Shown here piece by piece: positions 5,717-37,081 of a DNA stretch of 43,535 nt. The stretch is from positions 1 to 43,535 of the forward strand of contig QIGT01000494.1 of the NCBI GenBank assembly GCA_003230835.1, read 5' to 3'. Each line of letters opens with the position of its first letter. Positions within the stretch are counted from its first letter, which is position 1. The DNA is from Gammaproteobacteria bacterium. GTDB taxonomy: Bacteria > Pseudomonadota > Gammaproteobacteria > Pseudomonadales > Azotimanducaceae. The position numbers and the translations under genes are program-made. Below the pieces are notes generated by a model. The model saw only the letters and a list, made by a program, of their open reading frames with translations. It was not told where the DNA came from and made no database searches.

Positions 5717-6033
5717 GATCGTGTCCTTTGCAAGTACTTGAAAAAAATGAGTAGCAAATTTTTCTATGGATGGACGAAGTCATTTCGTCCGTTCTTGTTA
5801 AGTACTGCGCAAAAGGAATACAAATACGTTCATCGATAATAATAAAATTATAAGCCGATGAAAAAAATAGAATTAATGCCTAGTTGGTGCCAGACCGGAA
5901 CTCTCGGTAGGTCAAAAAAACATCTCAGGATATAGCAACATCACCCGACCGCATCTCCTAAGGAGAAGCGCAGGCCGAAACATCCAACTTACGAAAAGTA
6001 AGAGACAAAGAGACGAAAAAATTACGGAGGGAG

Positions 6034-6086
6034 GTGTGGGAGGCGAAGCCACCCGTTAGGGAGGTTTGGGGGCTTAGCCCCCCTAA
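6034..6086. repeat. GC-rich palindromic intergenic element, possible terminator of the downstream minus-strand gene
   Basis: GGGAGGCGAAGCCACCC and GGGGGCTTAGCCCCCC direct neighbours just 3' of the 6091-6786 gene. Confidence 0.45.
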
Positions 6087-6090
6087 AAAC

Positions 6091-6786
6091 CTATCTTTTC
6101 CACATCAACATATAGTGATGCTCAACAACCACATCATCCACCACGCCTTTAATCTCGTGAATGAATACGCCGCGGTTACTTTCATCAAGTTCACCAATGA
6201 CATAGACGATGGACAGTTGGCCCTTGTCGTCTTTACGCTCGGTGGCCCACAAGCGACCTTCCCAACCTGTAGAATGGTCGCCGCCAAGTTCGCCTTTAGC
6301 CGAAATACTCCCGGTGAGGGTGCCGAAACTGGTTAATAGCGAATCAGACACGCCCTCATAAAGGAGAGAATCAAACGGTGCTTCGTCCGGTAGGCCGGAA
6401 ATAGTAAGCACATCATCAGCGCGCCAATCGAACGAAAGACGGGTGCCGCCGGTCGGCGTTAGCCGTTTTCGCTCTTCGCCACCCAGAAGTTGCTGGTACT
6501 GAGACTCGGTCAAACCCATGTTCGGGTGGTAGGGAATACGCTCGCCTGGTGTAAGCTGGCTGGAGTATTGCTTAAACCAATCGGAGTTTTTTTGCAGATT
6601 TTCGGTCAATTTATCCGTCAATGAACGAATTTCGGGCGTAAATTCAATTTTCTGAATTTGTGCGTCAACCACTAGCGGCGCGTTCACGTACTCGGACAAT
6701 TTACCGAGATAGGGTTCGGCGGCCGCAAGCTTGGTCACACAAAGACCAACCAGGACCCCGGCAAGCTTAACAGAAGTGTTCAACAT
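6091..6786 (-). CDS. Hypothetical secreted protein
   Basis: 231 aa; N-terminal signal-like MLNTSVKLAGVLVGLCVTKLAAAEP; no family recognised. Confidence 0.65.
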   Translation of the reverse strand: MLNTSVKLAGVLVGLCVTKLAAAEPYLGKLSEYVNAPLVVDAQIQKIEFTPEIRSLTDKLTENLQKNSDWFKQYSSQLTPGERIPYHPNMGLTESQYQQLLGGEERKRLTPTGGTRLSFDWRADDVLTISGLPDEAPFDSLLYEGVSDSLLTSFGTLTGSISAKGELGGDHSTGWEGRLWATERKDDKGQLSIVYVIGELDESNRGVFIHEIKGVVDDVVVEHHYMLMWKR

Positions 6787-6856
6787 CGTACCCCGTCACT
6801 AAAATCGCATGTACCTCCGGTTTGAACCCCGGCGGATGGATTGGTTCCGGTCATAA

Positions 6857-7186
6857 CTATGGCTCTTTTTCTCCACCTTCAGGCCCATAAAATACCACCC
6901 ACGTGGCGAAATCGTCACTAAAATCTTCAAATCGGTGGGTGTCTCCGGCCGGAACAAACAAAACCTCCCCGGTTTCGACCGGGTGACGCACACGTTCGTG
7001 GACGAAAAACCCATTCCCGGAAGCAATGATGTACAGCTCGTCCCGGGTATGGGGAGTTTGATGGTCCTCACCCTTAGGCGCGTAAATTTCAACTTCCAGA
7101 CTACCGTGCGCGAAAACGCGATCAAACGGCGTCTCCGCCGCGGCCAGTCTCTCCATGGCTTGAGGGATTGTCAGTCTGGGTTTCAT
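6857..7186 (-). CDS. Cupin domain protein
   Basis: HTRDELYIIASGNGFFVHE...GEVLFVPAGDTHRFEDF cupin motifs. Confidence 0.85.
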   Translation of the reverse strand: MKPRLTIPQAMERLAAAETPFDRVFAHGSLEVEIYAPKGEDHQTPHTRDELYIIASGNGFFVHERVRHPVETGEVLFVPAGDTHRFEDFSDDFATWVVFYGPEGGEKEP

Positions 7187-7233
7187 CGCTATATTCTTTC
7201 CTCTACAGGCTCAAGTAATGATCTAACAACCCA

Positions 7234-7656
7234 TTAGTTTAGCGCAAGCGCTGCTCGCACCAACATTATCCATAGCGCCAGACACGACAGTACGTAAACG
7301 ACGAACCGAGCCATCACTACATTGACGGTGCAATGAATTGCGCTGTGGGTTGCGCGTAGCAAAAAAAACAACCAGGCACACACAACGTGGATCTGATCTA
7401 CCTGGCCCGCCCACAACAAATACAGCACGATAACGTAAAAGAGCACAGGCACTTCGAACAGGTGATTAAAGTTGTTCGCCGGATTTTGGATGTGTTCAGG
7501 CAACACAGCCTTCATTTTCTGCGGTGTCGATCCCGCCCGCGCCGGAATATTGTTTTTCACCATATAGCCGATTCGGCGAATATACATGTACACCCACACC
7601 AGCACTGTAAGCATCAACATGCCAAAGAAAGGAATTAGCAGTCGGGTTTCTTCCAT
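7234..7656 (-). CDS. MAPEG family membrane protein
   Basis: NPANNFNHLFEVPVLFYVIVLYL...RATHSAIHCT is typical of MAPEG family; ~140 aa, multi-TM. Confidence 0.85.
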   Translation of the reverse strand: MEETRLLIPFFGMLMLTVLVWVYMYIRRIGYMVKNNIPARAGSTPQKMKAVLPEHIQNPANNFNHLFEVPVLFYVIVLYLLWAGQVDQIHVVCAWLFFLLRATHSAIHCTVNVVMARFVVYVLSCLALWIMLVRAALALN

Positions 7657-7786
7657 CAATCACTCCAAAAACATTCATGTTCGCAATAACATTCAGTACG
7701 CTAGCTGATTCCTCAGAATACGTCCTGTCACATCACTTAACAAAAAGCGCGAGACAGTCGAGTCAATCTCAACATTTTCCCGCCAC

Positions 7787-8464
7787 CTAATTCCCATTCC
7801 TGTTTGCCGGATCAAAGTTCTGCACGTGATCGGGCTGACTAACGCCCTCATTAAGTCTTGAGTCGTCTTCCACCTTACTTGCGACTGTAGACAGCGGCAT
7901 AACGCCGGCCCAGATAGGTAATACGTAGTCTTCTTCGTCATCAGACACAGGACCCGTACGCACTTTCGCTGCTACGTCATCCATAGAAATAGCCACAATA
8001 CTGGTGGCTTTAATTTCTTTGTCGGTTACAGGGCGCAGGTAGTCCCAACGATCTGGCGTTAGATGGTCGACAAAGCGTTTCATCGCGGCCATTTTTGCGT
8101 CGGGCTCAGTAATTTCGTGTCCCTTGCCGTACAACACAACCGAACGATAGTTCATCGAATGATGAAATGCCGATCGAGCCAGCACCAAACCGTCGAGCAA
8201 CGTTACGGCAATACAAACGTCGTGGCCCGCTTCCAAATGTTTGAGCATGCGTCCACCTTTAAGACCGTGCAGCAATACGTGGTCACCATCGCGCGCATGA
8301 ATAGTAGGAATCATGAAAGGCTGGCCATCAACCACAAAACTCACGTGACAAATCATGCCTTCGTCAAGAATCGCGTTAATGGTTTCGCGGTCGTACTCGG
8401 CGCGTTTGGGCAGTCGTTTTACTATGTGTCGTCCTTCTGGGGACCGACCTTCGGGCTTGGCCAT
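7787..8464 (-). CDS. Pyridoxamine 5'-phosphate oxidase-like FMN-binding protein
   Basis: GMICHVSFVVDGQPFMIPTIHARDGDHVLLHGLKGGRMLKHLEAGHDVCIAVTLLDGLVLARSAFHHSMNYRSVVLYG. Confidence 0.88.
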   Translation of the reverse strand: MAKPEGRSPEGRHIVKRLPKRAEYDRETINAILDEGMICHVSFVVDGQPFMIPTIHARDGDHVLLHGLKGGRMLKHLEAGHDVCIAVTLLDGLVLARSAFHHSMNYRSVVLYGKGHEITEPDAKMAAMKRFVDHLTPDRWDYLRPVTDKEIKATSIVAISMDDVAAKVRTGPVSDDEEDYVLPIWAGVMPLSTVASKVEDDSRLNEGVSQPDHVQNFDPANRNGN

Positions 8465-8821
8465 AGGAATTTCTCTTTCAATTCAGCAATCACAAACAGC
8501 AGTGTCGGTACTGCACCGACGTAGCAACTCTTGCGGTAAAGACACCATTGTCTACCGCACACACAAGCTGTTCGCAGTCGTAACACTACCCGAACAGGTC
8601 TGCGTTTATTTATGCAAACAGGCACGACGCTCTACGAACTCGGTGCGAAAATACGCCAAATACGCTATGGCGCCACCGAATGAGGTAAGCCCCACAACCA
8701 GAAAAGCTCCGAAAACTTCGCTGGCTCGAGTGAAAGAAAATATCGGATTCGGCAACATGGCGCTACATTAGCCCAATAGCGCCACCGGGTTTAATCAATT
8801 TCACTGATAGATTGACCGTTT

Positions 8822-10468
8822 TTAAGCGCCTCGTTCAACCACCTTGTTGATGCGCCACTGCTGTGCCACGGACAAGACTGTGTTCACAACCCAATACAGC
8901 ACGAGGCCAGCCGGGAAGAACATGAAGAACACCGACATGATTATGGGCATGAAAGTCATAACCTTCTGCATGGTCGGATCGGGCGAAACCGGGTTGAGCT
9001 TGGTCTGCAAAAACATCGCTCCCGCCATAATCAGTGGCAAAATAAACCACGGATCGCGCGAGGACAAATCGGTTATCCAGCCAAAGAAGGGCGCCTGGCG
9101 CAGCTCGACACTTTCAATAAGTACCCAGTACAACGCCAGAAAGACGGGCATTTGAATCACCAACGGCAAGCAACCTGCAGCCGGATTAATCTTTTCTTTC
9201 TTATACAGCTCCATCATGGCTTTGCTTTGCGCCGGCTTGTCGTCTTTGTAGCGCTCCTGAATTTGCTTCAGACGCGGGGCCACCGTGCGCATTTTAGCCG
9301 TTGAGCGGCCTGCTTTTTCGGCAAGCGGATAAAACAAAAGTTTAATTAGAACTGTTAGCAAAATAATGGCCAGGCCCCAGTTGCCAACGAAACCGTGAAT
9401 GGTTCTTAGCAACCAGAACATAGGCTGCGAAATAATGGTTAGAAAACCGTAGTCGACCGACAATTCCAAACCTTCGGCTGTTTGTTCCATTTGGTCCTGA
9501 AGCTTGGGTCCAACAAATAGTTGCTGCGAATAGCTAACACTGGCACCGCTTGCAACTGTCAGCACTGGCGCTACAGCGCTAATCAACATGGTGGTATCGC
9601 TGGGTGTTCGCGAGGAATACTTTACGGCCTCACCACGCGGGGGAATGGCGGCTGACAAAAAGTGATGTTCAATATTGGCAATCCAGCCATTGGTAGCACT
9701 AAATGCCAGAGGTTCTTTGACCAAATCTTTCAGTGTGTATTTTTCGTAGCTCTCGCCGTCATACAAAATCGAACCAACAAACGAGTAGCTGTCGACGTCG
9801 ACCATCGAGCGCTTGGTACCCGCGGCGTTACCTTTCAACTGGGAATACTGAGCGCCCGACCAGTCCGTGTCACCGATGTTGGTGACGGTTTGCTTGAGTT
9901 CAATGTTGTAACGACCACGTGTAAACACATAGGTCTTGTCGACACTCACCCCGTCGCCTTGCCAGTTCATAGTAACTTCCAGGGTATCGGCACCAGGTTT
10001 TAGCTCGTAGCTTTGCGAAGCGGCGCTATACACAGAATCGTGTGTAGGGGCTTCTCGTCCGGCCGTCGCTAGAAGCCCGGTTTGCAACGCGGTAATACCA
10101 GGTTGTAGCAAAACCATTTTATCTTCTGGCTTGTCTTTACGTTTTGGGTAGTTAACCAGTGTCACTTCGCGAATAGACGCACCGGTAGTGTCTATGTAAA
10201 GGTCGTACACGTCGGTAACGACACGAACTTTTGGTGTGTTGGTATTGGGCTCTTCATCAAGCACCGGTTGAGCAATGCCACCACTTTGAGCGACTACATC
10301 ACCACCCAAAGCAGGTGGAGCAATGGAGTCGGAAACAGACGGTACTGCATTAGTGGGTTGCTCAATGGGAGCTGCCACGGCCTGTGGGCCGTAGTCACGT
10401 TGCCACGCCTGATAGGTGAGCAACCAAATCATGGCAACCGCCATCCAGATCAGAACGCGATTATCCAT
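8822..10468 (-). CDS. yidC: Membrane protein insertase YidC
   Basis: [22 protein letters not shown]...; 60KD_IMP C-terminal region [26 protein letters not shown]...[25 protein letters not shown]. Confidence 0.97.
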
Positions 10469-22641: not shown

Positions 22642-23538
22642 ATGCAGGACATCCCCTTAATTACAATTGGCATCCCGATCTATAACGGTGATCCATGGAT
22701 TGAGGAAACTATTGCATCAATTAAAATTCAAAGCGAGCAAAATTTTGAAGTTTTGATTTGCGACAATGCTTCAACGGATAACACTGAGAGCATTTGCCGT
22801 AAAATCGTAGCTGAAGACTCGCGCTTCAAATATATTCGTAATTCCAAGAACATTGGCGCCCCAAGAAATTACAACCTTGCCATTGAAGCTGCAACTGGAG
22901 AATATTTTAAGTGGAATTCCGCTTCCGATCTTTGTCTACCCGAACTTTTGGAAACCTGCATCAATGTTCTCGCAGAAAATAAAGAAGTCTCGCTATGCTA
23001 TTCAAGGACGGCCTATTTGAATGAGAATGGCGAGAAACAGTATATCGATAGGCAACTGGAACTTCTCCAGAGTTCGCCGAGTGAGAGATTTATCAGGTTT
23101 TGCGAAGAAATAAATCTGAATAACATGATGAATGGCGTTATGAGAACCAAGCAGCTTAGAGGCACCATGCTCAATCAGCAATACTTTGCTTCTGATATTT
23201 GTCTCATGGCAGAAATTGTATTGCTTGGCAAAGTTGTCCAACTGCCAGAATATTTATTTATTCGACGTATGAGTGAAGATACTTCTTCAAGCTTGGTATC
23301 CGAGACAGATCAGCAACGCTATATTGATCCTGAGTTAAAGAGCCGTATGTTGTTTCAGCATATGAAACAGTTTCGCGGATTTTTCAATGCCGTCATAAGA
23401 ACTAAAATCGAAAAACGAGAAAAAATGAAACTGTACCGCTACTTGTTCAAACGAATACGCTTTGCACGGCGCGAACTGTGGGGTGATATCACGCAAGCCG
23501 TTAAAAGTTTTTTTGTACAAAGAAACCCTGCTGCTTGA
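22642..23538 (+). CDS. Glycosyltransferase family 2
   Basis: PLITIGIPIYNGDPWIEETIASIKIQSEQNFEVLICDNASTDNTESIC GT-A fold. Confidence 0.93.
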   Translation: MQDIPLITIGIPIYNGDPWIEETIASIKIQSEQNFEVLICDNASTDNTESICRKIVAEDSRFKYIRNSKNIGAPRNYNLAIEAATGEYFKWNSASDLCLPELLETCINVLAENKEVSLCYSRTAYLNENGEKQYIDRQLELLQSSPSERFIRFCEEINLNNMMNGVMRTKQLRGTMLNQQYFASDICLMAEIVLLGKVVQLPEYLFIRRMSEDTSSSLVSETDQQRYIDPELKSRMLFQHMKQFRGFFNAVIRTKIEKREKMKLYRYLFKRIRFARRELWGDITQAVKSFFVQRNPAA

Positions 23539-23547
23539 GGACCATTT

Positions 23548-24816
23548 ATGGAACGCTACAATGCAAAAACTTTGGAAAAAGGACATACGTTTTCGTGCAG
23601 AGCCTGTGAGGCCGAAGTAAGTAGTAGCTTTGTTAATCTTGGCATGACTCCACCGTGCCAAAATCACGTTGAGCCTGAAAACGTGAACCTACATGAAGTT
23701 TATTATCCGTTGCATGCTTATTTATGCGACTCATGCATGTTAGTTCAATTAGATGAGTATGTTTCTCCGGATGAGATTTTTTCCGATTACGCTTACTTCT
23801 CTTCATATTCGACTAGCTGGGTAGAGCACGCAGGCCGTTACGTAGATATGGCAGTTGATCGATTTGGACTTGGCAGTGAAAGTCAGGTGTATGAGATCGC
23901 CAGCAATGACGGCTACTTGTTGCAACATTTCGTAAGCAAACATATTCCCTGCACAGGAGTCGAGCCTGCAGCGAACGTAGCAGAGGCCGCCATAGCCAAA
24001 AACATTCCAACCGAAGTTGTTTTTTTCGGGACCGAATCTGCAAATTTGCTGGCAAAGAAATACGGTCTGGCCGATTTGATTTTAGGAAACAATGTTTTGG
24101 CACACGTGCCAAAGTTAAACGATTTCATTGGAGGTATGAAACTTTTGTTGAAACCCGATGGCGTAATTACTATGGAGTTTCCTCATCTGCTGCAACTGAT
24201 GAAAAACAATCAGTATGACACTATTTATCACGAACATTTTTCTTACCTGGCATTTTTCGTCGTCGTTAACACGTTTGCAAAACATGGCCTGGATGTGTTC
24301 GACGTCGAGGTGCTTCCCACTCATGGGGGATCAATTAGAATTTTCGCACAACATCAGGATGGACCGAGGGAAATTTCAGCAAACGTCGGTGCCATGCTAG
24401 AACTTGAACAAGAATATGGCCTGTTTGAACCGGAGGTTTATCAACTCTTTGCGGCACAAGTAAGGAACAGCAAGAGACGATTACTGGAATTTCTTATAAA
24501 AGCTCATGACCAGGGAAAAAGTGTAGCCGCCTATGGCGCGCCAGGTAAGGGAAACACTTTGCTAAACTACTGCGGAATTGGCACAGATCTAATTGAGTAT
24601 ACGGTTGATTTATCGCCCCACAAGAATGGCCGATATACGCCCGGCAGCAGAATTCCAATTTTTCACCCTGATCGCATTAGAGAAACAAAGCCCGATTTTA
24701 TTCTGATTCTGCCCTGGAATCTTGAAAAAGAAATTACGCAGCAACTAGAATACATTCGAGAATGGGGTGGCCAGTGCGTTGTTCCAATTCCAGAAGTTCG
24801 ATTGTGTGCTCAATAA
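23548..24816 (+). CDS. Class I SAM-dependent C-methyltransferase with N-terminal zinc-binding domain (sugar C-methyltransferase type)
   Basis: CRACEAEVSSSFVNLGMTPPCQNHV...CDSCMLVQLDEYVSPDEIFSDYAYFSSYSTSWVEHA...VYEIASNDGYLL...YGAPGKGNTLLNYCGI. Confidence 0.92.
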   Translation: MERYNAKTLEKGHTFSCRACEAEVSSSFVNLGMTPPCQNHVEPENVNLHEVYYPLHAYLCDSCMLVQLDEYVSPDEIFSDYAYFSSYSTSWVEHAGRYVDMAVDRFGLGSESQVYEIASNDGYLLQHFVSKHIPCTGVEPAANVAEAAIAKNIPTEVVFFGTESANLLAKKYGLADLILGNNVLAHVPKLNDFIGGMKLLLKPDGVITMEFPHLLQLMKNNQYDTIYHEHFSYLAFFVVVNTFAKHGLDVFDVEVLPTHGGSIRIFAQHQDGPREISANVGAMLELEQEYGLFEPEVYQLFAAQVRNSKRRLLEFLIKAHDQGKSVAAYGAPGKGNTLLNYCGIGTDLIEYTVDLSPHKNGRYTPGSRIPIFHPDRIRETKPDFILILPWNLEKEITQQLEYIREWGGQCVVPIPEVRLCAQ

Positions 24817-24831
24817 GGCACGGGGCGCATT

Positions 24832-25365
24832 GTGAAATTTAGAGAAACATCACTTCCTGGAGCCTATATGATCGACGTGGAACCACACGTTGATCACAGA
24901 GGTTATTTTGCGCGCACTTGGTGCGCCCGCGAATTCGCTGAGCATGGTCTTAGCGAAAGAATGGTGCAGGGAAGTATTTCGTTTAACCATAAGGCGGGAA
25001 CATTGCGTGGTATGCATCTCCATAGTGAGAGTTTCCCCCAAACACGCCTCGTCAGGGCTATTCAGGGATCAACGTATTTTGTAATCCTGGACTTGAGGAA
25101 AGGTTCCAGTCATTTTAAGAAACATGAATCTTTTACCGTAGAAGCCGAAAGCCACCGCGCACTCTACGTCCCAGCAGGCGTAGCATTAGGCTACCAAACA
25201 CTTGAAGACAACACTCTTATTTACTACCTGATGCCAGAATTTTACACACCAGAATATGAAACGGGTGTTCGCTGGAACGACCCGGCCTTTAATATCAGCT
25301 GGCCAACTGCGCAAAGAATTATTGTAGATCGAGATGCAAATTATCCAGACTTTCGTGTTGACTAG
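24832..25365 (+). CDS. dTDP-4-dehydrorhamnose 3,5-epimerase family protein
   Basis: LPGAYMIDVEPHVDHRGYFARTWCAREFAEHGL...SFNHKAGTLRGMHLH...; GTG start. Confidence 0.92.
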   Translation: MKFRETSLPGAYMIDVEPHVDHRGYFARTWCAREFAEHGLSERMVQGSISFNHKAGTLRGMHLHSESFPQTRLVRAIQGSTYFVILDLRKGSSHFKKHESFTVEAESHRALYVPAGVALGYQTLEDNTLIYYLMPEFYTPEYETGVRWNDPAFNISWPTAQRIIVDRDANYPDFRVD

Positions 25366-25385
25366 TAATTGAATTATCTAGACTA

Positions 25386-26687
25386 GTGAAAAATCTCAAG
25401 CCACTACTTTGTGTTGCCGATATCGATCAACTTGCTGAGCGACTCTATCCAATCTGTCGCAGCATTACCGGTGAGGGTGTTAGAGAAACTCTAACGATTC
25501 TCTCCGAATACCTGGACCTGTCGATTTCCGAAATTCCCAGCGGTAAAGCAGTATTTGACTGGACTGTCCCGCAAGAATGGGTGGTACGAGATGCCTGGGT
25601 GAAAGATCCTGAAGGCCGAAAAATCATCGACTTTCAGCAACACAACCTTCATTTGGTTAATTACAGCGCACCGGCACACGGTCAATTCAGCTTGGAAGAA
25701 CTTGATCAGCACCTAAATTCAATTCCTGAACACCCGGATTGGATTCCTTACCGAACCAGCTATTACAAATCGGACTGGGGGTTTTGCCTAACGCACAAAC
25801 AAAGATCGGCGCTTAAAGAGGGTGTCTATGAAGTTTTTGTCGACACACAATTTAAAGATGGCAGCCTCAGTCTGGCTGAATATTTTGTCCAGGGTAAAAG
25901 TCAGTCGGAAATTGTTATCTATTCGCATTGTTGTCATCCTTCTTTGGCCAACGACAACCTTTCAGGGCTGATCTGTTGCACAGCCCTTGCTCAGGTACTC
26001 AGCAAGCAACAACCGAATTTCAGCTATCGCATTATATTTGGCCCTGGAACTATTGGTTCAATCTCGTGGTTGGCTGAGAATCAGGCTCACCTGAAGAATA
26101 TTACAATGGGACTAGTCCCGGTTCTATTAGGCGATTCGGGCGACTTCCGATACAAAAAAAGCCGCCACGGCGAAGCATTAATCGATCGCGCAGTTGAGCG
26201 AGTACTTCACGATCGAGGGTTAAATTGTCGATTGGAAGACTTTTCTCCTTATGGTTACGAAGAAAGGCAGTTCAACTCACCTGGCATAAATATTCCTACC
26301 GGTCGTCTATCCCGTTCTGCACATGGCCAATATGCCGAGTATCATAGTTCGGCCGATAATCTTGACTTCATATCAGCGAATCAGATTCTCGAGTCGATTA
26401 CAGTTTGCGAAGATATTGTCCACGTTCTCGATCGTAACGTGCGCTTACTCAATTTATTCCCACACGGTGAACCACAGTTGGGAAAACGCGGTCTGTATGG
26501 GGATAAAGGTGGTAGCAAGGTCGGAAATTGGGAGATGGCTATGCTCTGGGTTCTAAACCTGGCAGATGGCGAGCACGATCTACTGGCTATGGCCGATCGA
26601 AGTAAATTGAGTTTCGACGAAATCTATTCTGCTGCGATGGCGCTTGAAGACGCTGGTGTAGTGAAACGATTGAGTTCGCGTGGCTGA
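25386..26687 (+). CDS. DUF4910 domain protein (M28-like aminopeptidase fold) associated with polysaccharide loci
   Basis: RLYPICRSITGEGVRETL...VIYSHCCHPSLANDNLSGLICCTALA...GPGTIGSISWLAEN...EYHSSADNLDFI; GTG start. Confidence 0.85.
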   Translation: MKNLKPLLCVADIDQLAERLYPICRSITGEGVRETLTILSEYLDLSISEIPSGKAVFDWTVPQEWVVRDAWVKDPEGRKIIDFQQHNLHLVNYSAPAHGQFSLEELDQHLNSIPEHPDWIPYRTSYYKSDWGFCLTHKQRSALKEGVYEVFVDTQFKDGSLSLAEYFVQGKSQSEIVIYSHCCHPSLANDNLSGLICCTALAQVLSKQQPNFSYRIIFGPGTIGSISWLAENQAHLKNITMGLVPVLLGDSGDFRYKKSRHGEALIDRAVERVLHDRGLNCRLEDFSPYGYEERQFNSPGINIPTGRLSRSAHGQYAEYHSSADNLDFISANQILESITVCEDIVHVLDRNVRLLNLFPHGEPQLGKRGLYGDKGGSKVGNWEMAMLWVLNLADGEHDLLAMADRSKLSFDEIYSAAMALEDAGVVKRLSSRG

Positions 26688-28215
26688 CTCGAAAGAACAG
26701 ACGCGGGCTAGTGGTGGTGGCGAACTAGCTGGCAAAACTGCTCGCGGTATTGGCTGGATGATGTTGTTAAAGCTTGTCATGCAGAGTCTGGGCTTGATCA
26801 GTACGCTAATACTGGTGCGCCTTTTATCCCCTCAAGATTTTGGTCTGGTGGCGATGGCAATGGTATTCATTGCGATTATGGATATTTTTTCTTCCTTCAG
26901 TTTCGACGTTGTTCTCATCCAGAAGCAAACGGCCGAACGCAAACATTACGACACAGCTTGGTCGTTTACACTAATCTTTCATTTAATATCGGCACTCATA
27001 TTACTCGCTATTGCCTACCCAGCCTCTTTGTATTACGAAGAACCAAGGGTCACGAATTTGATCGTCATCCTGGCGGTTGGACTTGTGATTACCGGATTCG
27101 AAAACATCGGTGTGGTAGATTTTCGCAAGAACATGGAGTTCGATAAAGAGTTCCGTTTTAGGCTTATTAAGAAGGTGGCCGCATTTAGCGTCACTATTCC
27201 ATTGGCTTTTTATTGGCAAAATTACTGGGCACTTATTGTCGGCATGTTAACGGCCAAAATTACAGGCTTGGTGTTGAGCTACGTGATGTCTAGCTATCGT
27301 CCACGTTTCGATTTGAGCGCCCGATCGGAATTAATGCACTTTTCCAAGTGGCTGTTTTTCAGCAATATTTTCTACGCCTTTAGAATGCGTGGCGCCGATC
27401 TGATTATCGGTAAAGTTTCGGGTGCACGGGCATTAGGACTTTTCTCAATAAGTTACGAATTGTCAAATCTCCCTTCAACAGAATTAGTTGCTCCAATTAA
27501 TCGCGTTGTGTTTTCAGCCTATTCTAAATTAGCTGGCGACTTAGAGGCTATGCGCAGAGGCTACTTGAGTGTCATCGGATTGATCGCACTAGTGATCATT
27601 CCGGCGGGCGTAGGTATCGCAGCCTGCGCTCGATTGCTCGTTCCAATTTTGCTTGGTGATAAATGGGTAGATGCTACCCAATTAATTTCAATTCTGAGTT
27701 TCTATGGGGTGCTGGCTGCGCTGCAAACCAATGTCGCGTCAGTGTATATCGCTCTTGGTAAACCGAAAATACTGACATGGTTGCACTTGCTACATCTTGT
27801 TGTGTTACTCGCTGTTGCGGTACCTGCGATCTTATCTTATGGCGTATTGGGTGCAGCATGGAGTTATCTTGGTGTGGCACTGGTACTACTTCCAATTAAC
27901 TACGCGGTGATGTTCAAGACGATTTCACTTGCACCGACAAGATTCCTCTCCCAACTGTGGCGTCCGGTAATTTCTGCCGCACTGATGTATTTTTCTGTAA
28001 ATACCGTCAGCACCAGGTTCTTTGATACCAGTGGCGGTGAGCCTGGTTTTATCCAGCTCCTTGCCGTGATCGTATTGGGCGCAGCGGTTTACACCGTGCT
28101 GGTAGTCTCTTTATGGCTGCTGTCGAAAAAGCCGCCTGGCGCCGAATCATACGTCTTGAACGTAATCAAAGCGAAAATGGGTTCTAAATTTAAGGTGAAG
28201 AGCAGCACAGACTAG
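26680..28215 (+). CDS. Polysaccharide/oligosaccharide flippase (PST/MOP superfamily)
   Basis: GIGWMMLLKLVMQSLGLISTLILVRLLSPQDFGLVAMAMVFIAI...; many TM segments; 8-nt overlap with upstream gene; GTG start. Confidence 0.92.
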   Translation: MADSKEQTRASGGGELAGKTARGIGWMMLLKLVMQSLGLISTLILVRLLSPQDFGLVAMAMVFIAIMDIFSSFSFDVVLIQKQTAERKHYDTAWSFTLIFHLISALILLAIAYPASLYYEEPRVTNLIVILAVGLVITGFENIGVVDFRKNMEFDKEFRFRLIKKVAAFSVTIPLAFYWQNYWALIVGMLTAKITGLVLSYVMSSYRPRFDLSARSELMHFSKWLFFSNIFYAFRMRGADLIIGKVSGARALGLFSISYELSNLPSTELVAPINRVVFSAYSKLAGDLEAMRRGYLSVIGLIALVIIPAGVGIAACARLLVPILLGDKWVDATQLISILSFYGVLAALQTNVASVYIALGKPKILTWLHLLHLVVLLAVAVPAILSYGVLGAAWSYLGVALVLLPINYAVMFKTISLAPTRFLSQLWRPVISAALMYFSVNTVSTRFFDTSGGEPGFIQLLAVIVLGAAVYTVLVVSLWLLSKKPPGAESYVLNVIKAKMGSKFKVKSSTD

Positions 28216-29012: not shown

Positions 29013-29930
29013 TCACCCCGCGTTCGGGTCATAAACAAAATCACCGTCGCCCACACCGCTATCGTGGAGCGCCACCGTGGATTCAGGTAGTTTCGACAAA
29101 TCACCACCTTGCAGATAATCACGTAAAGTTGTGCCTGTACAGGCCGAATCGCTAGTTGGTGCCCCTAGTTTAGCGTCTGCATCTTTGGCATTCACCGTGC
29201 GAAAGTCAATACTAAAACGTGTTTTACCGGTTACATTCTCTACCGAAGAATGAAGATGTGCGCCTGAAAATAACATCACGCCACCCACTGGGGCCACAAT
29301 TCTCAGGTCGTCTTTACAATTGATCTCTACAGTTGCCCGCGGTTGTTCACGCGTATCTTTACCAATATGTTTGGCAGCATCTCGCCTGCTATCGCGATTC
29401 CATTGATAGTAATCATAATTGCTCGACGTATTGGGCACGACAGAATCAAAAAAAGCATTCTGAAATGCCATTACATTTCCTGCCTGCTGCGCCTTCACTG
29501 GCATCCACCAATTTATCTGACAGTTTGGTGCTGAATACCAGGTGTCACGGTGCGGATGAAACGCGTAGGCAATGCCACTAGTCAGATACCCGTCAGAAGT
29601 GGAAGTTCGCAGACGCGGCACGTCAAAATATGTTTGCTCTAGCTCACATTCAAATTGTTTGAATATTTTCCGTATCCATTCTTTGGCTTCCGGATCATGT
29701 ATGAACATCGGTTTCAGTTTGCTGAGTATATCCGCGTACTCTTCTACGGGAAAAAAATCCTGGGCAATTTCCGGTGAATGCGGTGCAAAAGCTTCTTCGC
29801 TGAGCCGATTTGCCAATGCGCACAAACCTAATGTCGCAGGTGTTGGAGAGTACACATAGATATCACCTCGATAGATACGCCCGCGGCGTTCTTCGTCGCT
29901 ATGAGGAGAATCAAAATAGACTGCTGTCAT
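29013..29930 (-). CDS. Fe(II)/2-oxoglutarate-dependent oxygenase-like protein
   Basis: AYAFHPHRDTWYSAPNCQINWWMPV (HxD: HRD), GGVMLFSGAHLHSSVENVTGKTRFSIDFRTV (distal His, Arg). Confidence 0.65.
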   Translation of the reverse strand: MTAVYFDSPHSDEERRGRIYRGDIYVYSPTPATLGLCALANRLSEEAFAPHSPEIAQDFFPVEEYADILSKLKPMFIHDPEAKEWIRKIFKQFECELEQTYFDVPRLRTSTSDGYLTSGIAYAFHPHRDTWYSAPNCQINWWMPVKAQQAGNVMAFQNAFFDSVVPNTSSNYDYYQWNRDSRRDAAKHIGKDTREQPRATVEINCKDDLRIVAPVGGVMLFSGAHLHSSVENVTGKTRFSIDFRTVNAKDADAKLGAPTSDSACTGTTLRDYLQGGDLSKLPESTVALHDSGVGDGDFVYDPNAG

Positions 29931-29955
29931 CCCTATCGCCTTTTCATAAGTTACA

Positions 29956-32085
29956 TCAATGCACTTGTTCGTCTTGCTTGGCAAGTTCGGTATTCGGGCG
30001 CTTCGATGAAAGTCCGATGGCAAATAAGGACCGCCCAGCTGCCATCATCAGTTGCTGCTCACCGTCGACCAAATAGGTTGTTGGCGACGAATTCACCTGG
30101 CCACCAACTTCTAATTCCCAGAGTACCTGACCATTCAGGTCGTCTAATACAAAAAGTCGCCTGTAGTCTCCGCCGAACACAATTCCTCCCGCTGTTGAAA
30201 GTACACCACCGGTCTTCCACCACCGCGTTCTCGGAGGGTTCTTCATTTCCCATATTAACTCCCCGGTTAAGGGATTTAGTGCTCGCACCGCTGAATAGAG
30301 TGTTTGATCGGTACTTACGAATTGTTGGCCACTGCCATAAAATTGTTTTCCCTTCTCATATTCAACAACGTCTTCTTGCTTGAACATTAAACTACCGAAC
30401 TCAACAACTGGTAGATATAAATACCCGGTGCTAGCACTCAAACTCGGGGACTGCCAGTTCATAGCGCCAGTTGAGCTGGGCCAGGTAATCACCCCTTCCA
30501 CGCTCACGCGGGTATCAGGTTCAAGAATTGGACGACCTTCCGGTGTTATTCCTTTGGCCCAGTTTTGTTTGGCAAAAGGAGTTGCGAGTAAGAACTCTCC
30601 AGTCTCGCGATCCAGAACATAATAGAATGCATTCCGGTTTGGCCATAGAATCAGTGATCGTTGTTGCCCTTTCCAATCGGCATCCATCAGTACCGGTATT
30701 TGATTTGAATCCCAGTCGCGTTCATCATTTGGGGTAAATTGAAAGTGCCAGGCAAGCTCTCCTGTCGCGACATCCAAAGCGATGACACTACAGGAATATA
30801 GATTGTCGCCCTCTCGAGCGTGCGATTGATACAAAGGACCAGGATTACCGACGCCCCAATACAGCAATTTCAATTCAGGGTCATATGAACCCGTAAGCCA
30901 GGTTGGAGCTCCACCCGTTTTCCACGACTCTCCTGCCCAGCTGTCATGTCCTGGCTCACCCGGACCTGGTACCGTATAGAAGCGCCACAGCCTTTCACCG
31001 GTCAGCGGGTCATAGGCGTCAAGATAGCCGCGGATACCGAATTCACCACCACCCACACCTATGATCAATTTATTGTCAGCAATTAGTGGTGCCGCCGTGA
31101 TAGATATTCCTTTCTTGTAATCGTCTACCTTGGTCTGCCATACCAACTTACCCGTTTTCGCATCCAGAGCAATCAGTTTTGCATCTACCGTACCCATAAA
31201 TACCAAATCGCCAATAACCGCGACCCCACGATTTACTTTACCGCAACAAACGATGACGTCATTTGGTAACTTGTGGCGATAAACCCAAATTGTACGTCCG
31301 GTTTCAGGGTCCAGGGCATGTACATTGTTTGGCGGCTCCGTGACGTACATGAGCCCGTCATTAACTATTGGTGTGGTTTCGACTATCAGCTCATCGCCTT
31401 CGAACTGACGAATCCACTTTATCCCCAAATCTTGTGCATTATCCCGGTTGATTTGCTCAAGAGGACTATGACGCGTTCCATCGTAGTGACCAGAATAATG
31501 CAGCCAGTTACCTGGTTCTTGCCTGGAGTTCAGCAATCGATCTGCTGTCACTGAAGAGTATTCGACTTCAGGCTGGGCCACATTGACTGCGTCGCTGTTA
31601 CTTAAATCGCGTATGTAGGCCACTGTCTGCCAGATTTCAATTTCGTTAAGTGCCGCTGGCGGCATATTGGTGCCTGCGATGCCGTTTCTGATATTTTGAT
31701 GCAGTGCCCAATCGCTTTGGCCATGTTTGAAATCGGCATCGAAGAGTGCCGGGCCTGAATTACCTTTGCCATCGACACCATGGCACGTCACACAATTAGA
31801 TCTGAAAATCTCGGTACCGGAGTCAATGTCTTCAGTGCTGTTACGAGGATTAAGCACCACACTATAAATATTTTTCGTTTCACCAAGAGGCTCCAGAAAG
31901 ACTTCACTACCCGGTTTCAACATGGAAATCAGCTGGGACCAGCTAACACCGTCGATATCGCCCATAGCCATATCGGCAACAACTTTCACGCGCCAGCGGG
32001 CCTCTGGAACCTGAGAAACTACAATACCCACAAGTACTATTCCCGCAAGGCTGAGCAGCAGAAATATTAACAACAATCTTTTCAT
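29956..32085 (-). CDS. PQQ-dependent dehydrogenase with N-terminal cytochrome c domain
   Basis: CVTCHGVDGKGNSGPALFD...NMPPAALNEIEIWQTVAYIRDL (c-type haem), then PQQ propeller LDPETGRTIWVYRHKLPNDVIVCCGKVNRGVAVIGDLVFMGTVDAKLIALDAKTGKLVWQ. Confidence 0.93.
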   Translation of the reverse strand: MKRLLLIFLLLSLAGIVLVGIVVSQVPEARWRVKVVADMAMGDIDGVSWSQLISMLKPGSEVFLEPLGETKNIYSVVLNPRNSTEDIDSGTEIFRSNCVTCHGVDGKGNSGPALFDADFKHGQSDWALHQNIRNGIAGTNMPPAALNEIEIWQTVAYIRDLSNSDAVNVAQPEVEYSSVTADRLLNSRQEPGNWLHYSGHYDGTRHSPLEQINRDNAQDLGIKWIRQFEGDELIVETTPIVNDGLMYVTEPPNNVHALDPETGRTIWVYRHKLPNDVIVCCGKVNRGVAVIGDLVFMGTVDAKLIALDAKTGKLVWQTKVDDYKKGISITAAPLIADNKLIIGVGGGEFGIRGYLDAYDPLTGERLWRFYTVPGPGEPGHDSWAGESWKTGGAPTWLTGSYDPELKLLYWGVGNPGPLYQSHAREGDNLYSCSVIALDVATGELAWHFQFTPNDERDWDSNQIPVLMDADWKGQQRSLILWPNRNAFYYVLDRETGEFLLATPFAKQNWAKGITPEGRPILEPDTRVSVEGVITWPSSTGAMNWQSPSLSASTGYLYLPVVEFGSLMFKQEDVVEYEKGKQFYGSGQQFVSTDQTLYSAVRALNPLTGELIWEMKNPPRTRWWKTGGVLSTAGGIVFGGDYRRLFVLDDLNGQVLWELEVGGQVNSSPTTYLVDGEQQLMMAAGRSLFAIGLSSKRPNTELAKQDEQVH

Positions 32086-32326
32086 CCGCTGAACCTCATA
32101 CGCCAATTTGTCTATTTTTCTAGCATAGCCTATTCTCTGCAGGAGCGAAATAGGCTACCAGAAGGCTGGGATTCGATCATACAAAGCTAAAATATACGTA
32201 ATAAAAGGCAATCAACGGGCTTATAATCCCGGTGTTCGCGTAAAATGTGACAATGACTGTATTTGTGCTGTGCTAAATGTAATATAAATAGAAAAATGCA
32301 ACCCCATAAAACGGAAACCAACCTCA

Positions 32327-33343
32327 GTGAGCCATCAAAAGAACGACCCAAAACCCTCATCATCTCAAACAGATCTGAATACCGAACCTCGTAACCGTAA
32401 ACCACTGGTTTATGCGTTGGCGTTGGTAGTTGTTGCTTTGATGGCCTATGGCTACAAACTCGTCAATCACGGAATTTTTGCCTGTTCAGCTAACGGCTAT
32501 CAGGACGGATGGTACTTTGCCTACTGTAATTCAACTGCCTACGGCGACTACGATCACGGTGCTCTGTGGTATCCGCTGGAACCAGAAACCGTAAGTTTTG
32601 CCAGCGACGCAGAAGTGCTAATGGTCGGTAGCAGTCGCATGCAGTACGGCTTTTCCACAGACACTGTAGACCAATGGTTCAGTCAACGTGGAATTTCTCA
32701 TTACCTTCTAGGATTCAGCCACACTGAAACAGTTAAGTTCATGCAGCCTCTGTTAGAAAAAGTCAATCCACAAGCAAAAGTCATAGTGATAAACCTGGAC
32801 GGTTTTTTCGAGAATCGCGTTACAGAACCCGTCGCCAAACTCTTCGCAGGCGGAGACAGTCGCAGTCGTTATGAAGCTAAACGGCGCTGGCAAAAACCTC
32901 ACCGCGTACTCTGCGGTGCGATTCCTGGTCTTTGCAAAAACTCTCCGGCTGTCTACCGTAATATTGAGACCGGCCGATGGATTCAATATGGTAAAAACCC
33001 GAACTGGCTCAAGGCACCAACTGCTCTTAAAAGCGAAGAGCAACAAATGGAATTTGATAAGGGCCTAATTCTCGCGCAGGATTTTATACGCTCAATCGAT
33101 CAAGACGGTCGCTGTATTTTTCTGACTATCGTGCCATCGCCATTTACACCAATGAAAGAGGTCGAATACCTGGCCAAAAAATTAGGTATACCGCTGCATG
33201 TTCCAACACCGCAGGGTTATCTTACACGCGACAATTCGCACTTGGATATCCCAAGTGCAGAGCGTTGGAGTCAAGCCTATTTACAACTTTCTGGTGATGA
33301 AATCGAACGATGTTTAACCCAGCCCACAGCTTCTACCCGATAG
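32327..33343 (+). CDS. Membrane-anchored SGNH-hydrolase-like protein (DltD/AlgJ-like role inferred)
   Basis: N-terminal TM PLVYALALVVVALMAYGYKL; block I-like VLMVGSSRMQYGFS; block V-like DNSHLDIPSAERW; GTG start. Confidence 0.68.
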   Translation: MSHQKNDPKPSSSQTDLNTEPRNRKPLVYALALVVVALMAYGYKLVNHGIFACSANGYQDGWYFAYCNSTAYGDYDHGALWYPLEPETVSFASDAEVLMVGSSRMQYGFSTDTVDQWFSQRGISHYLLGFSHTETVKFMQPLLEKVNPQAKVIVINLDGFFENRVTEPVAKLFAGGDSRSRYEAKRRWQKPHRVLCGAIPGLCKNSPAVYRNIETGRWIQYGKNPNWLKAPTALKSEEQQMEFDKGLILAQDFIRSIDQDGRCIFLTIVPSPFTPMKEVEYLAKKLGIPLHVPTPQGYLTRDNSHLDIPSAERWSQAYLQLSGDEIERCLTQPTASTR

Positions 33344-33355
33344 AGGGCAATAATA

Positions 33356-35212
33356 GTGAGCCTAAATACGTTAAGTCAGCAGCTGAACTCGTTAGATGTT
33401 GAATCTGATGACGCCTTCAGTAAATTGGCTAATTTGGCCAATCAAGCTGTCGATTACCTGGGCGCTATCCAGATTAATCGCACGATTGATCGTCTCGTAA
33501 ATAAGCCGAATGCGGTCAAGCTGGCCGTACTGTCGTCGGCCACCTGTGATCACCTTGTTCCCGGTATACGATTAGCCGCACTTCGAAGAGGCTTATTGAT
33601 TGAGATCTATTGCGGACAATATGGTCAGTATCGACACGAGATCATGCAACCACCCAGTTCCCTGCGAGCCTTTGCACCCGAGTATATTCTGTTGTCGCTA
33701 CATGCAGACTCATTGCTCGGCCAGATAAGCCCTGCTAGTAGCCCAGATGAGGTTGATGCAATCCTCAACCTGCAAGTCGAATCCTTGATCCAACTGTGGT
33801 CGCAAGCAAAGGCAAACTTTGGAGTAAGCGTAGTACAGCAGAGTTTTTTAGATACGGCGCCTCCGCTGTTTGGCAATCTCGATCGAATGCAATCGGCTAG
33901 TCCTTTTCAAAGGGTGCAAGTACTTAATCAGAAACTGGCAGAAGCTGCGCATCGTGAGCAAACAGGACTGTTGGACGTCTCCAAAGCATCCAGGCAAAAA
34001 GGGCTAACCCATTGGTTTGATCGTGCCCGTTGGCTGCAAGCGAAAATGGAAATTGCCCCTGCCGCAGCCCTGGATTTTGGCGAGCTAATGGCACAATATC
34101 TGAACGCCCAACTAGGCAAAGCACGAAAATGTCTGGTGTTGGATTTGGACAATACTCTATGGGGTGGCGTGATTGGCGACGATGGGCTCGATGGAATTAT
34201 ACTCGGGCAGGGAACGGCTGTAGGCGAAGCGCATTTGTTCATTCAAAGTTACGCTAAATCTTTGAAAGAGCGCGGCATCGTATTGGCGGTTTGTTCGAAA
34301 AATGAAGAGAAAATTGCCCGTGCGGCTTTCACCGATCACCCGGACATGGTGCTGTCTCTGGATGATATAGCTGTTTTTATTGCAAACTGGCAGGACAAAG
34401 CTGTCAATCTACAGACTATCGCAACCACACTTAATATTGGTTTGGCCAGTTTGGTGTTTCTGGATGACAATCCCGCCGAGCGAGAGCGCATTCGAACAGC
34501 ACTGCCAATGGTGGCTGTTCCTGAAGTTGGTGACGATCCGACCTATTTCGTAGACGTTCTTGCTGGCCAGGGGTATTTTGAAGCGGCAACTTTCACTCAG
34601 GAAGACATGCAGCGCGCAGCGCATTATTCGGCGAACTCCAAACGCCAGATGAGCATGGAAACAGCAGTGACAATTGATGACTACCTTGCCGACTTGAGCA
34701 TGCAAATGATGCATGGACCTGTTAGTCAGCTTGAATTGCCACGCGCAACACAATTAATGGCGAAAACCAACCAATTTAATACCACCACGCGACGCTACTC
34801 ACAGGAAGAAATTGCCGCATTTGCGGACGACCTTTCTTGCATCAGTTTTCAAGCGCGCCTGCAAGACAAGTTCGGTGACAACGGCCTGGTTAGCGTAGCA
34901 TTGCTAGCCTCGTCTTCGGCGGACTCCAAGACTCTTGTAATTGAGAATTGGATAATGAGCTGTCGTGTATTTGGCCGAAATCTGGAAGGGGCAATTATGA
35001 ACTTGCTTGTTGCTCAGTCGCTCGAACTGGGTGCGGAACATCTGCGAGCGGAATTTATTCCAACAGCAAAAAATGGTGTGATAGAGAATCTCTTTGCTAC
35101 GCTTGGGTTTCATTTACAATCCACGTCGACTACTGAGACCCAAATTTGGGAAATTAGTTTGGCGGACTACCAATTAATTCCGACCTATATTTCAGTTAAG
35201 GAAAATACATGA
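33356..35212 (+). CDS. HAD-IIIC family phosphatase / FkbH-like protein
   Basis: KCLVLDLDNTLWGGVIGDDGLDGIILG...LAVCSKNEE...LVFLDDNPAERERIR; C-terminal GNAT-like region; 618 aa; GTG start. Confidence 0.95.
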   Translation: MSLNTLSQQLNSLDVESDDAFSKLANLANQAVDYLGAIQINRTIDRLVNKPNAVKLAVLSSATCDHLVPGIRLAALRRGLLIEIYCGQYGQYRHEIMQPPSSLRAFAPEYILLSLHADSLLGQISPASSPDEVDAILNLQVESLIQLWSQAKANFGVSVVQQSFLDTAPPLFGNLDRMQSASPFQRVQVLNQKLAEAAHREQTGLLDVSKASRQKGLTHWFDRARWLQAKMEIAPAAALDFGELMAQYLNAQLGKARKCLVLDLDNTLWGGVIGDDGLDGIILGQGTAVGEAHLFIQSYAKSLKERGIVLAVCSKNEEKIARAAFTDHPDMVLSLDDIAVFIANWQDKAVNLQTIATTLNIGLASLVFLDDNPAERERIRTALPMVAVPEVGDDPTYFVDVLAGQGYFEAATFTQEDMQRAAHYSANSKRQMSMETAVTIDDYLADLSMQMMHGPVSQLELPRATQLMAKTNQFNTTTRRYSQEEIAAFADDLSCISFQARLQDKFGDNGLVSVALLASSSADSKTLVIENWIMSCRVFGRNLEGAIMNLLVAQSLELGAEHLRAEFIPTAKNGVIENLFATLGFHLQSTSTTETQIWEISLADYQLIPTYISVKENT

Positions 35213-35451
35213 CCGATGAAGAGCTGCTGCGATCTTTTTCACAGACACTAGGTGACTTGTTAGGTACGACCGACCTTGAACTGACGCTGGAAACGCTGCG
35301 TAGCGAAGTTCCCGGTTGGGATTCGTTTAATTATATAAATTTTATTGTCGCAATCGAGATCGGCCATAACGTCAAGTTCAAAGTCGCTGACGTCGAGTCA
35401 TTTAGAAATGTCGGTCAAATTGTGTCCGAATTACAAGCCATGTTAGCTTGA
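35209..35451 (+). CDS. Acyl carrier protein
   Basis: 80 aa; VPGWDSFNYINFIVAIE with phosphopantetheine Ser codon 35323-35325; ATGA overlap with FkbH gene. Confidence 0.92.
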   Translation: MTDEELLRSFSQTLGDLLGTTDLELTLETLRSEVPGWDSFNYINFIVAIEIGHNVKFKVADVESFRNVGQIVSELQAMLA

Positions 35452-35461
35452 GACCCGGCCA

Positions 35462-37081
35462 ATGCTATTTAACTCATACGAATTCATTTTTATATTCCTG
35501 CCGTTGGTTTTGTTTGGCTTCCAGCTCGCCCGACGATTGGGTTACAACGCCGCCATAGTTTTTCTAATTTTCGTTTCGTTGATATTTTACGCCTGGTGGC
35601 GTCCAATCAATTTACTCATCATTGTGCCTTCGATTTTTGTCAATTATATATTGGCAAAAACCCTGCTGCGATACGCAGAGTACGAGGGAAAGGCCCGGGT
35701 GCGAAATTTCCTGTTAACCATTGGCATCATCAGCAACCTGCTATTCCTTGGGTACTTCAAGTATCTGACTTTTTTCCAGGGCACCAGTAACGATTTATTC
35801 GGCACTGATTTTGTGCTGACATACATCATTTTACCGCTGGGTATTTCGTTTATTACTTTCCAAAAGATTGCGTTTCTGGTTGATGTGCATGGTGGTGGAA
35901 TAAAAGCGTTCAAATTTCGTGAGTTCGCCCTGTTCGTTTTGTTTTTCCCACAGTTGATTGCCGGGCCTATCGTACATTTTAGGGAAATGGTGCCGCAGTA
36001 TCGTCAACTAGGTATACGCATAGATCGAAATATGCTGGCCCTTGGCATTAGCTTGTTCTGCATCGGTTTGTTCAAAAAGGCTGTGTTGGCCGACGGAATC
36101 GCCATCCACGTCACACCTGTTTTCGATGCCGCGGCGGCCGGTCAAGTTATTACTTTGACGTACGCCTGGATCGCAGCGATAGGTTTCACCTTACAAATCT
36201 ATTTTGATTTTGCAGGATACTCCGATATGGCTGCTGGCCTGGCGCTCGCAATAGGCTTACGTTTACCAGTTAATTTTGACAGTCCGCTTAAGTCTTGCAA
36301 TATCATCGATTTTTGGGCGCGTTGGCATATCACGTTGACGCGTTTTCTAACTGCCTATGTCTATAACCCAATTGCATTGTATGGGACTCGACGACGACTG
36401 GGAAAGGGGCTCGGCGGGTTCAACCCGAACAACCCCAAATTCACGGCATTCCTGACACTTTTGGCCGCCCCTACATTTCTCACCATGCTGTTGTCTGGAC
36501 TTTGGCATGGAGCAGGCTATACGTTTATCGTGTGGGGCGCTTTACATGGCGCATATTTATGTATTAATCACGGCTGGCGTCTGATTGCACCCAAGAGGTT
36601 TTCCAGTAGAGAAACGTACGAAAAATGGATGAGACCGGTCGGTTTTGTAATTACTTTTCTGTCAGTAACTTTCGCCATGGTTTGGTTTCGCGCTGAAAGC
36701 GTAGGTTCCGCCCTGGAATTGTCAAAGGCTATGGCAGGCACTAATGGTATTGGCATACCGGAAAAAATTGTCGGCATGATTGGGCTTGAAAACATGTCAT
36801 TTATTATTCCAGAAGCTGTTAGCTTGCTTGAGTTCTTCACCACTGTAGCATGGGTTATTGCGCTTCTGGTAGTAGCACTACTGCTTCCCAATGGGTTTCA
36901 ATTTCTAGCTGCCTATGAGCCTGTACTGGGCTATAAGTTAAAAGATAACCCCAGTTCACGGGTCGCTGCCAAACTTTCGTGGCAACCGTCGTTACCATGG
37001 TTTTTGATTATTTCAGTGCTGCTGATATCAGCTGTTTTACGAGTCGGTGGTCAAAGTGAATTTTTATACTGGCAATTCTAA
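35462..37081 (+). CDS. MBOAT family O-acyltransferase
   Basis: MLFNSYEFIFIFLPLVLFGF...FPQLIAGPIVHFREMVPQ...DFWARWHITLTRFLTAYVYNPI...LLSGLWHGAGYTFIVWGALHGAYL. Confidence 0.96.
   Translation: MLFNSYEFIFIFLPLVLFGFQLARRLGYNAAIVFLIFVSLIFYAWWRPINLLIIVPSIFVNYILAKTLLRYAEYEGKARVRNFLLTIGIISNLLFLGYFKYLTFFQGTSNDLFGTDFVLTYIILPLGISFITFQKIAFLVDVHGGGIKAFKFREFALFVLFFPQLIAGPIVHFREMVPQYRQLGIRIDRNMLALGISLFCIGLFKKAVLADGIAIHVTPVFDAAAAGQVITLTYAWIAAIGFTLQIYFDFAGYSDMAAGLALAIGLRLPVNFDSPLKSCNIIDFWARWHITLTRFLTAYVYNPIALYGTRRRLGKGLGGFNPNNPKFTAFLTLLAAPTFLTMLLSGLWHGAGYTFIVWGALHGAYLCINHGWRLIAPKRFSSRETYEKWMRPVGFVITFLSVTFAMVWFRAESVGSALELSKAMAGTNGIGIPEKIVGMIGLENMSFIIPEAVSLLEFFTTVAWVIALLVVALLLPNGFQFLAAYEPVLGYKLKDNPSSRVAAKLSWQPSLPWFLIISVLLISAVLRVGGQSEFLYWQF

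Follow-up and report, generated by a model that had tools for sequence, protein, structure and literature searches.

What would an FkbH-like enzyme and a free acyl carrier protein (ACP) contribute when their genes lie between those of an SGNH-like protein and an MBOAT? The question is raised by a locus in a 43,535-nucleotide stretch of a gammaproteobacterial genome (Azotimanducaceae, contig QIGT01000494.1), the whole of which is referred to here as the window. A check of the open reading frames of the window located four ORFs on the plus strand at 32327–37081. All were found as placed in the earlier note, which had described four consecutive genes on the same strand in the order SGNH, FkbH, ACP and MBOAT. 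The ATGA overlap claimed between FkbH and ACP was also confirmed, with FkbH ending at 35212 and ACP starting at 35209. The distances between the genes are 12 bases for SGNH/FkbH, −4 for FkbH/ACP and 10 for ACP/MBOAT. The features considered are as follows.

26680–28215, plus strand: Wzx/TuaB-like flippase of the neighbouring glycan genes (context gene)
32327–33343, plus strand: SGNH-like protein, putative acyl-transfer partner, 338 aa, one N-terminal TM helix (about 25–48)
33356–35212, plus strand: FkbH-like HAD-IIIC enzyme with FkbH_N domain, 618 aa
35209–35451, plus strand: predicted free ACP, 80 aa, ATGA overlap with FkbH
35462–37081, plus strand: DltB-like MBOAT, 539 aa, extra C-terminal TM helices
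37061–37078, plus strand: putative acyl-shuttle hexapeptide FLYWQF (FxYxxF) at the MBOAT C-terminus, motif function taken from PMC12148441

We consider that the four genes constitute one operon, whose products O-acylate a glycan outside the cytoplasm, with glycerate as the most likely acyl group, and estimate the probability of this reading at roughly two in three. The chemical steps, acyl group, acceptor and activities proposed below are inferred from gene content, motifs, family assignments and the conservation of the set.

Concerning the loading enzyme, the FkbH protein scored 287 bits against TIGR01686, above the curated cut-off of 146.65, and 41.6 bits against Pfam FkbH_N (cut-off 27). 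The residues D263xD265, S314, K348, D370-D371 and C536 are kept in 99–100% of the aligned FkbH proteins of the module type, and the window protein is the only FkbH found in its own genome. The ACP gave a weak match to PP-binding (14.4 bits, below the Pfam cut-off of 20.8). The serine of its WDS motif is present, and both the motif and the position beside FkbH recur in homologues; Ser39 (35323–35325) in WDSF is the expected phosphopantetheine site. FkbH-like enzymes generate glyceryl-ACP from 1,3-bisphosphoglycerate in the proposed tetronate and methoxymalonate pathways (PMC7489565), and judging from this chemistry elsewhere, glycerate is the most likely acyl group here.

The MBOAT was recognized by Pfam PF03062 (74.7 bits), and its nearest NCBIfam family was DltB, with a score of 181.6 bits that lies below the equivalog cut-off of 375. 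The protein ends in FLYWQF. An FxYxxF end was present in 45 of the 51 MBOATs of the survey described below, and one of the six without it, that of a Bryobacteraceae locus (L060), is cut by the contig end. F534, Y536, F539, H289 and H349 were invariant in an alignment of 39 module MBOATs. The structural comparison with Dlt suggested in the earlier note was carried out with the MBOAT alone; the predicted structure (pLDDT 92) matched DltB best, with a TM of 0.74–0.76 by target length, and displayed additional helices after the MBOAT core. In PatA, the tyrosine of FxYxxF has been shown to be auto-acylated (Anderson et al. 2025, PMC12148441). The motif is found at the MBOAT C-terminus in PatA and on the microprotein DltX in Dlt, a tyrosine shuttle having been demonstrated for both, and the acyl group in MBOAT-SGNH pathways passes from the MBOAT to the tyrosine, then to the SGNH serine and the polymer (PMC12148441). 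We propose that Tyr536 (37067–37069) is the acyl acceptor of the window MBOAT, and this putative shuttle at the MBOAT end is a key feature absent from the earlier note. As the MBOAT carries an acyl-tyrosine hexapeptide of its own, the acyl group is likely to travel from ACP to MBOAT Tyr536, to the SGNH serine and on to the glycan. It had previously been suggested that the MBOAT passes the acyl group across the membrane to the glycan. The carrier-fed MBOAT of that suggestion is retained here, but given its own FLYWQF the enzyme need not hand the acyl group to the glycan itself.

The SGNH-like protein had no family match in Pfam or NCBIfam, DltD included, and a PDB sequence search with the protein or its alignment gave no real match. 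Ser103 (32633–32635, in GSS or GDS), Asp302 and His305 (DxxH) were invariant in 17 of 17 partner proteins aligned, and are proposed to form the catalytic triad. When a structural model of low confidence (pLDDT 62) was used as a Foldseek query, the first three matches were PatB (probability 0.99–1.00, best E 0.03). A crude search by profile or motif found an SGNH candidate in 37 of the 51 loci with an MBOAT, a count in which some genes were surely missed due to the simple gene caller used.

In the mechanism that we propose, FkbH would take the 3-phosphoglyceryl group from 1,3-bisphosphoglycerate, remove the phosphate and load the glyceryl unit onto the phosphopantetheine arm of ACP. Glyceryl-ACP would dock at the cytoplasmic face of the MBOAT, which would transfer glycerate across the membrane onto Tyr536 in the FLYWQF of the same protein. 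The membrane-anchored SGNH protein would then accept the acyl group on Ser103 and esterify a hydroxyl group of a glycan at the surface or in the periplasm, which may be the product of the upstream glycosyltransferase and flippase genes.

With regard to this acceptor, genes for a flippase, a glycosyltransferase, an rmlC-like epimerase and a C-methyltransferase are situated at 22642–28215, 4 kb upstream of the module, and the flippase may be part of the acceptor-making pathway. Three opposite-strand genes separate the flippase from the module, which makes a link between the module and the window glycan genes plausible but not tight; it is helped by L060, where genes for a glycosyltransferase and a Wzx-type flippase immediately precede the module. 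The glycan of the adjacent polysaccharide genes had been named earlier as the acceptor. Its genes are indeed near, as is the flippase in L060, but the intervening genes weaken the assignment, as does Stutzerimonas stutzeri V81 (L042, also L080), whose module sits among unrelated metabolic genes and without glycan genes. We also observed, within the run of sugar and flippase genes, a gene for a protein with DUF4910, DUF2172 and winged-helix regions (25386–26687, plus strand). On the minus strand, a 2OG-Fe(II) oxygenase-like gene (29013–30023), whose product weakly resembles TIGR04324 (sporadic carbohydrate cluster), adjoins a cytochrome c-PQQ dehydrogenase gene (29956–32106). Promoter and terminator scans performed no better than shuffles.

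A search for conserved SGNH-FkbH-ACP-MBOAT adjacency, suggested as a check in the earlier note, revealed the arrangement of the window, with all four genes and their order unchanged, in the Bryobacteraceae locus L060, which belongs to another phylum (Acidobacteriota) and is the nearest relative by FkbH. Identities to the window proteins are 39% for SGNH, 48% for FkbH, 51% for ACP and 55% for MBOAT, the last over the first 346 residues only, where the contig ends. The order is MBOAT-FkbH-ACP-SGNH in S. stutzeri V81, with the same ATGA overlap between FkbH and ACP, and complete copies are present on a plasmid of Rhodobacteraceae SC52 (ACP-FkbH-MBOAT-SGNH) and on pSymB of Sinorhizobium meliloti 1021 and 2011 (MBOAT-SGNH-ACP-FkbH); in strain 1021 the module spans 631205–636239 of NC_003078.1 on the minus strand. 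Complete plasmid copies were found in 39 Sinorhizobium records, including these two strains, with at least 80% of the query covered. Further arrangements occur in Sphingomonadaceae, Acetobacteraceae, Burkholderiaceae, Rhizobiaceae, Nitrospinota, Gemmatimonadota and others. Judging from the several gene orders in Stutzerimonas, SC52 and S. meliloti, the linkage of the four genes survives rearrangement, and chance adjacency was rejected because the set recurs in this manner. The central idea of the earlier note, that FkbH replaces DltA and feeds a carrier serving the MBOAT and SGNH protein, is well supported by conservation in several orders and phyla; the route needs amendment, as it likely runs via MBOAT Tyr536.

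The Sinorhizobium genes are annotated one by one, as MBOAT family protein, HAD family hydrolase, acyl carrier protein and TonB-dependent receptor. The last label, given to the SGNH-like partner in S. meliloti pSymB (L146, 6817–8046), looks wrong for a protein with an inner-membrane anchor and GGS and DPGH motifs. In Magnetococcales (L098, 1616–3217) and Nitrospina (L127, 3245–4879), a B12-binding radical SAM gene lies upstream of the module, the assignment having been checked with Pfam in the Nitrospina locus only. Related loci of one branch (L093, L103, L105, L120, L126, L127, L109, L129, L133 and others) encode a class I SAM methyltransferase beside FkbH and/or MBOAT; these proteins belong to a single family of about 310 aa with a motif like AVWPEHxxFLxKS. 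The methyltransferase may methylate the glyceryl unit, in which case some versions of the module may transfer O-methylated glycerate.

The extent of the coupling was surveyed with 80 FkbH loci of named genomes, with similarity to the FkbH proteins of the window and of S. stutzeri as the ranking criterion. ACP is directly adjacent to FkbH in 68 of the 80, and an MBOAT is present in 51, on the same strand within 3.5 kb in 46 and elsewhere in the locus in 5; 15 loci have full flanks and no MBOAT, and 14 are cut by contig ends. The distances of FkbH and MBOAT correlated (r = 0.73, 46 loci), with 0 of 999 permutations giving a value as high, a correlation that shared descent alone could produce. 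MBOAT genes were rare in the relatives searched, with 22 matches in 58 genomes, an estimate of about one per 9 Mb. No match was found in the viral contigs scanned with FkbH. Owing to its ranking, the survey overstates the association of FkbH with MBOAT, and samples at the levels of order and class provide a correction. FkbH occurred in 14 of 295 genomes of the window's order and, above a strict threshold, in 10 of 369 genomes of the class, and only the window and Stutzerimonas loci had an MBOAT. Those other FkbH loci in these samples whose neighbourhoods were read have other neighbours, and most have an ACP. Since most sampled FkbH-ACP pairs are without MBOAT, the coupling represents a sub-lineage. 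On a tree of 83 FkbH proteins, the MBOAT label changed 14 times, compared to 25 in shuffles, with at least nine changes on well-supported branches; MBOAT coupling has thus been gained or lost several times, and is clustered on the tree rather than of single origin there. Taking the tree and the pairs without MBOAT into account, we view FkbH-ACP as a reusable donor cassette, of which coupling to MBOAT-SGNH is one use. On a Niveispirillum plasmid (L145, 7688–8830), the gene after FkbH-ACP encodes a putative acetyltransferase of the WcbI family, which might also draw on the FkbH carrier on the glycan side. We also noted a locus with an SGNH-MBOAT pair and a convergent ACP gene, without FkbH nearby (L051 of genome G053, 5957–8968), and on another contig of the same genome an FkbH without adjacent ACP (L044).

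The findings on FkbH-ACP pairs bear on the possibility that the MBOAT and the SGNH protein are an ordinary O-acetylation pair of the PatAB, AlgI/X or Wss type using acetyl-CoA, while FkbH and ACP make a separate cytoplasmic product such as an N-glyceroyl sugar, all being neighbours because they serve one glycan. Most sampled FkbH-ACP pairs do lack an MBOAT, the Niveispirillum pair has a putative acetyltransferase beside it, and the FxYxxF end is common to PatA, which uses acetyl-CoA. We nevertheless regard this as unlikely, as FkbH, ACP and MBOAT are linked across many gene orders and taxa, and the four genes of S. stutzeri stand without glycan genes, leaving no other user of the carrier at hand. 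In addition, the genome of the window harbours a second MBOAT (L002, contig 78, 5460–9659), whose C-terminus reads FIYFQF and whose gene directly precedes that of an SGNH-like protein (GSSMVQ). Within the stretch fetched there is no FkbH or ACP, as expected of a CoA-using pair, and we take this pair, by its gene content, to be a canonical acetyl-type pair that provides an internal contrast to the module.

Even if the carrier-MBOAT-SGNH route is correct, the acyl group might be D-lactate, O-methylglycerate or a further modified three-carbon acid. The methyltransferase beside FkbH and/or MBOAT in the branch described above points in this direction, methoxymalonate pathways include oxidation or methylation of the FkbH product (PMC7489565), and lactyl groups on exopolysaccharides are known (PMC4432689). 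For the window itself this seems quite unlikely, as its four-gene unit includes no methyltransferase or FkbH-associated dehydrogenase, and the intact set of HAD catalytic residues is consistent with dephosphorylation of a phosphoglyceryl unit. We also considered a pathway for a secreted small molecule or glycolipid, with that product rather than a polymer as the acceptor. Polyketide and NRPS clusters are the best-known setting of FkbH, and in the suomilide cluster an FkbH domain occurs together with an MBOAT that has been proposed to acylate the suomilide sugar (PMC13122637). The annotated neighbours in the window include no PKS or NRPS genes; flippase, glycosyltransferase and sugar-nucleotide genes are close; and an SGNH partner with a shuttle motif typically belongs to the acylation of envelope polymers, all of which render this alternative highly improbable. 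Transfer of glycerate to a glycan remains our preferred reading.

A literature search on FkbH with MBOAT, SGNH, gellan or glycerate (subscription journals and patents excepted) found no description of the module as a system; FkbH and MBOAT appeared together in two papers, both on cyanobacterial NRPS of the aeruginosin/suomilide type. Bacterial polysaccharides bearing glycerate esters have been on record since 1986, with gellan as the example, according to work cited in PMC4432689, and within the same bounds of the search no paper was found that names a transferase for them. On balance, we think that the module represents a widespread and undescribed class of envelope acylation, in which a glycolytic intermediate would be passed via FkbH and a carrier to an MBOAT that carries a tyrosine shuttle of its own, and then to an SGNH protein, so that surface glycans gain glycerate, or O-methylglycerate in the methyltransferase branch. 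If so, a third donor logic would join D-alanyl-carrier/DltX and acetyl-CoA/PatA. It could provide the enzymes still missing for glycerate esters like those of gellan, and would tie central metabolism, through 1,3-bisphosphoglycerate, to cell-surface chemistry. The complete pSymB copy in S. meliloti 1021 and 2011 makes the module testable in standard strains.

How the module relates to known systems can be judged from its components. An activating enzyme, a predicted free carrier, an MBOAT, an SGNH-like protein and FxYxxF are common to the module and to the Dlt system for D-alanylation of teichoic acid (DltA, DltB, DltC, DltD and DltX). However, FkbH (HAD-IIIC) occupies the place of the adenylating DltA, with no AMP-binding (DltA-type) protein among the annotated neighbours in the window, and the shuttle motif carried by DltX in Dlt is fused to the MBOAT; the gap of only 10 bases between ACP and MBOAT leaves no space for a separate DltX gene inside the unit. 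With the MBOAT far below the DltB equivalog cut-off, the SGNH protein without a DltD match, and DltA and DltX absent, membership in Dlt was rejected. The FkbH/ACP pairs for tetronate and methoxymalonate also have an FkbH above the TIGR01686 cut-off beside a standalone ACP, but there the consumer is a ketosynthase-like enzyme or dehydrogenases rather than an MBOAT-SGNH pair, and the module FkbH, unlike theirs, is of the long FkbH_N type (about 620 residues). The module resembles the PatA/PatB, AlgI/X and WssH/I pairs in that its MBOAT carries a C-terminal FxYxxF and additional TM helices and goes with a separate, putative SGNH protein, for which PatB gave the best, though weak, fold match. The catalytic His (H349) of the PatAB type is likewise present. 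These pairs, on the other hand, use acetyl-CoA and no carrier, and MBOAT-SGNH pathways other than Dlt are stated to have no carrier protein (PMC12148441), whereas in the module, by gene content, ACP and FkbH are encoded in the operon and conserved with it. The module would break the 2025 statement that carrier use among MBOAT-SGNH pathways is of the Dlt type only. By the tests applied to these sequences, it appears to join the carrier protein of Dlt with the fused shuttle of PatA, and to be a member of neither.
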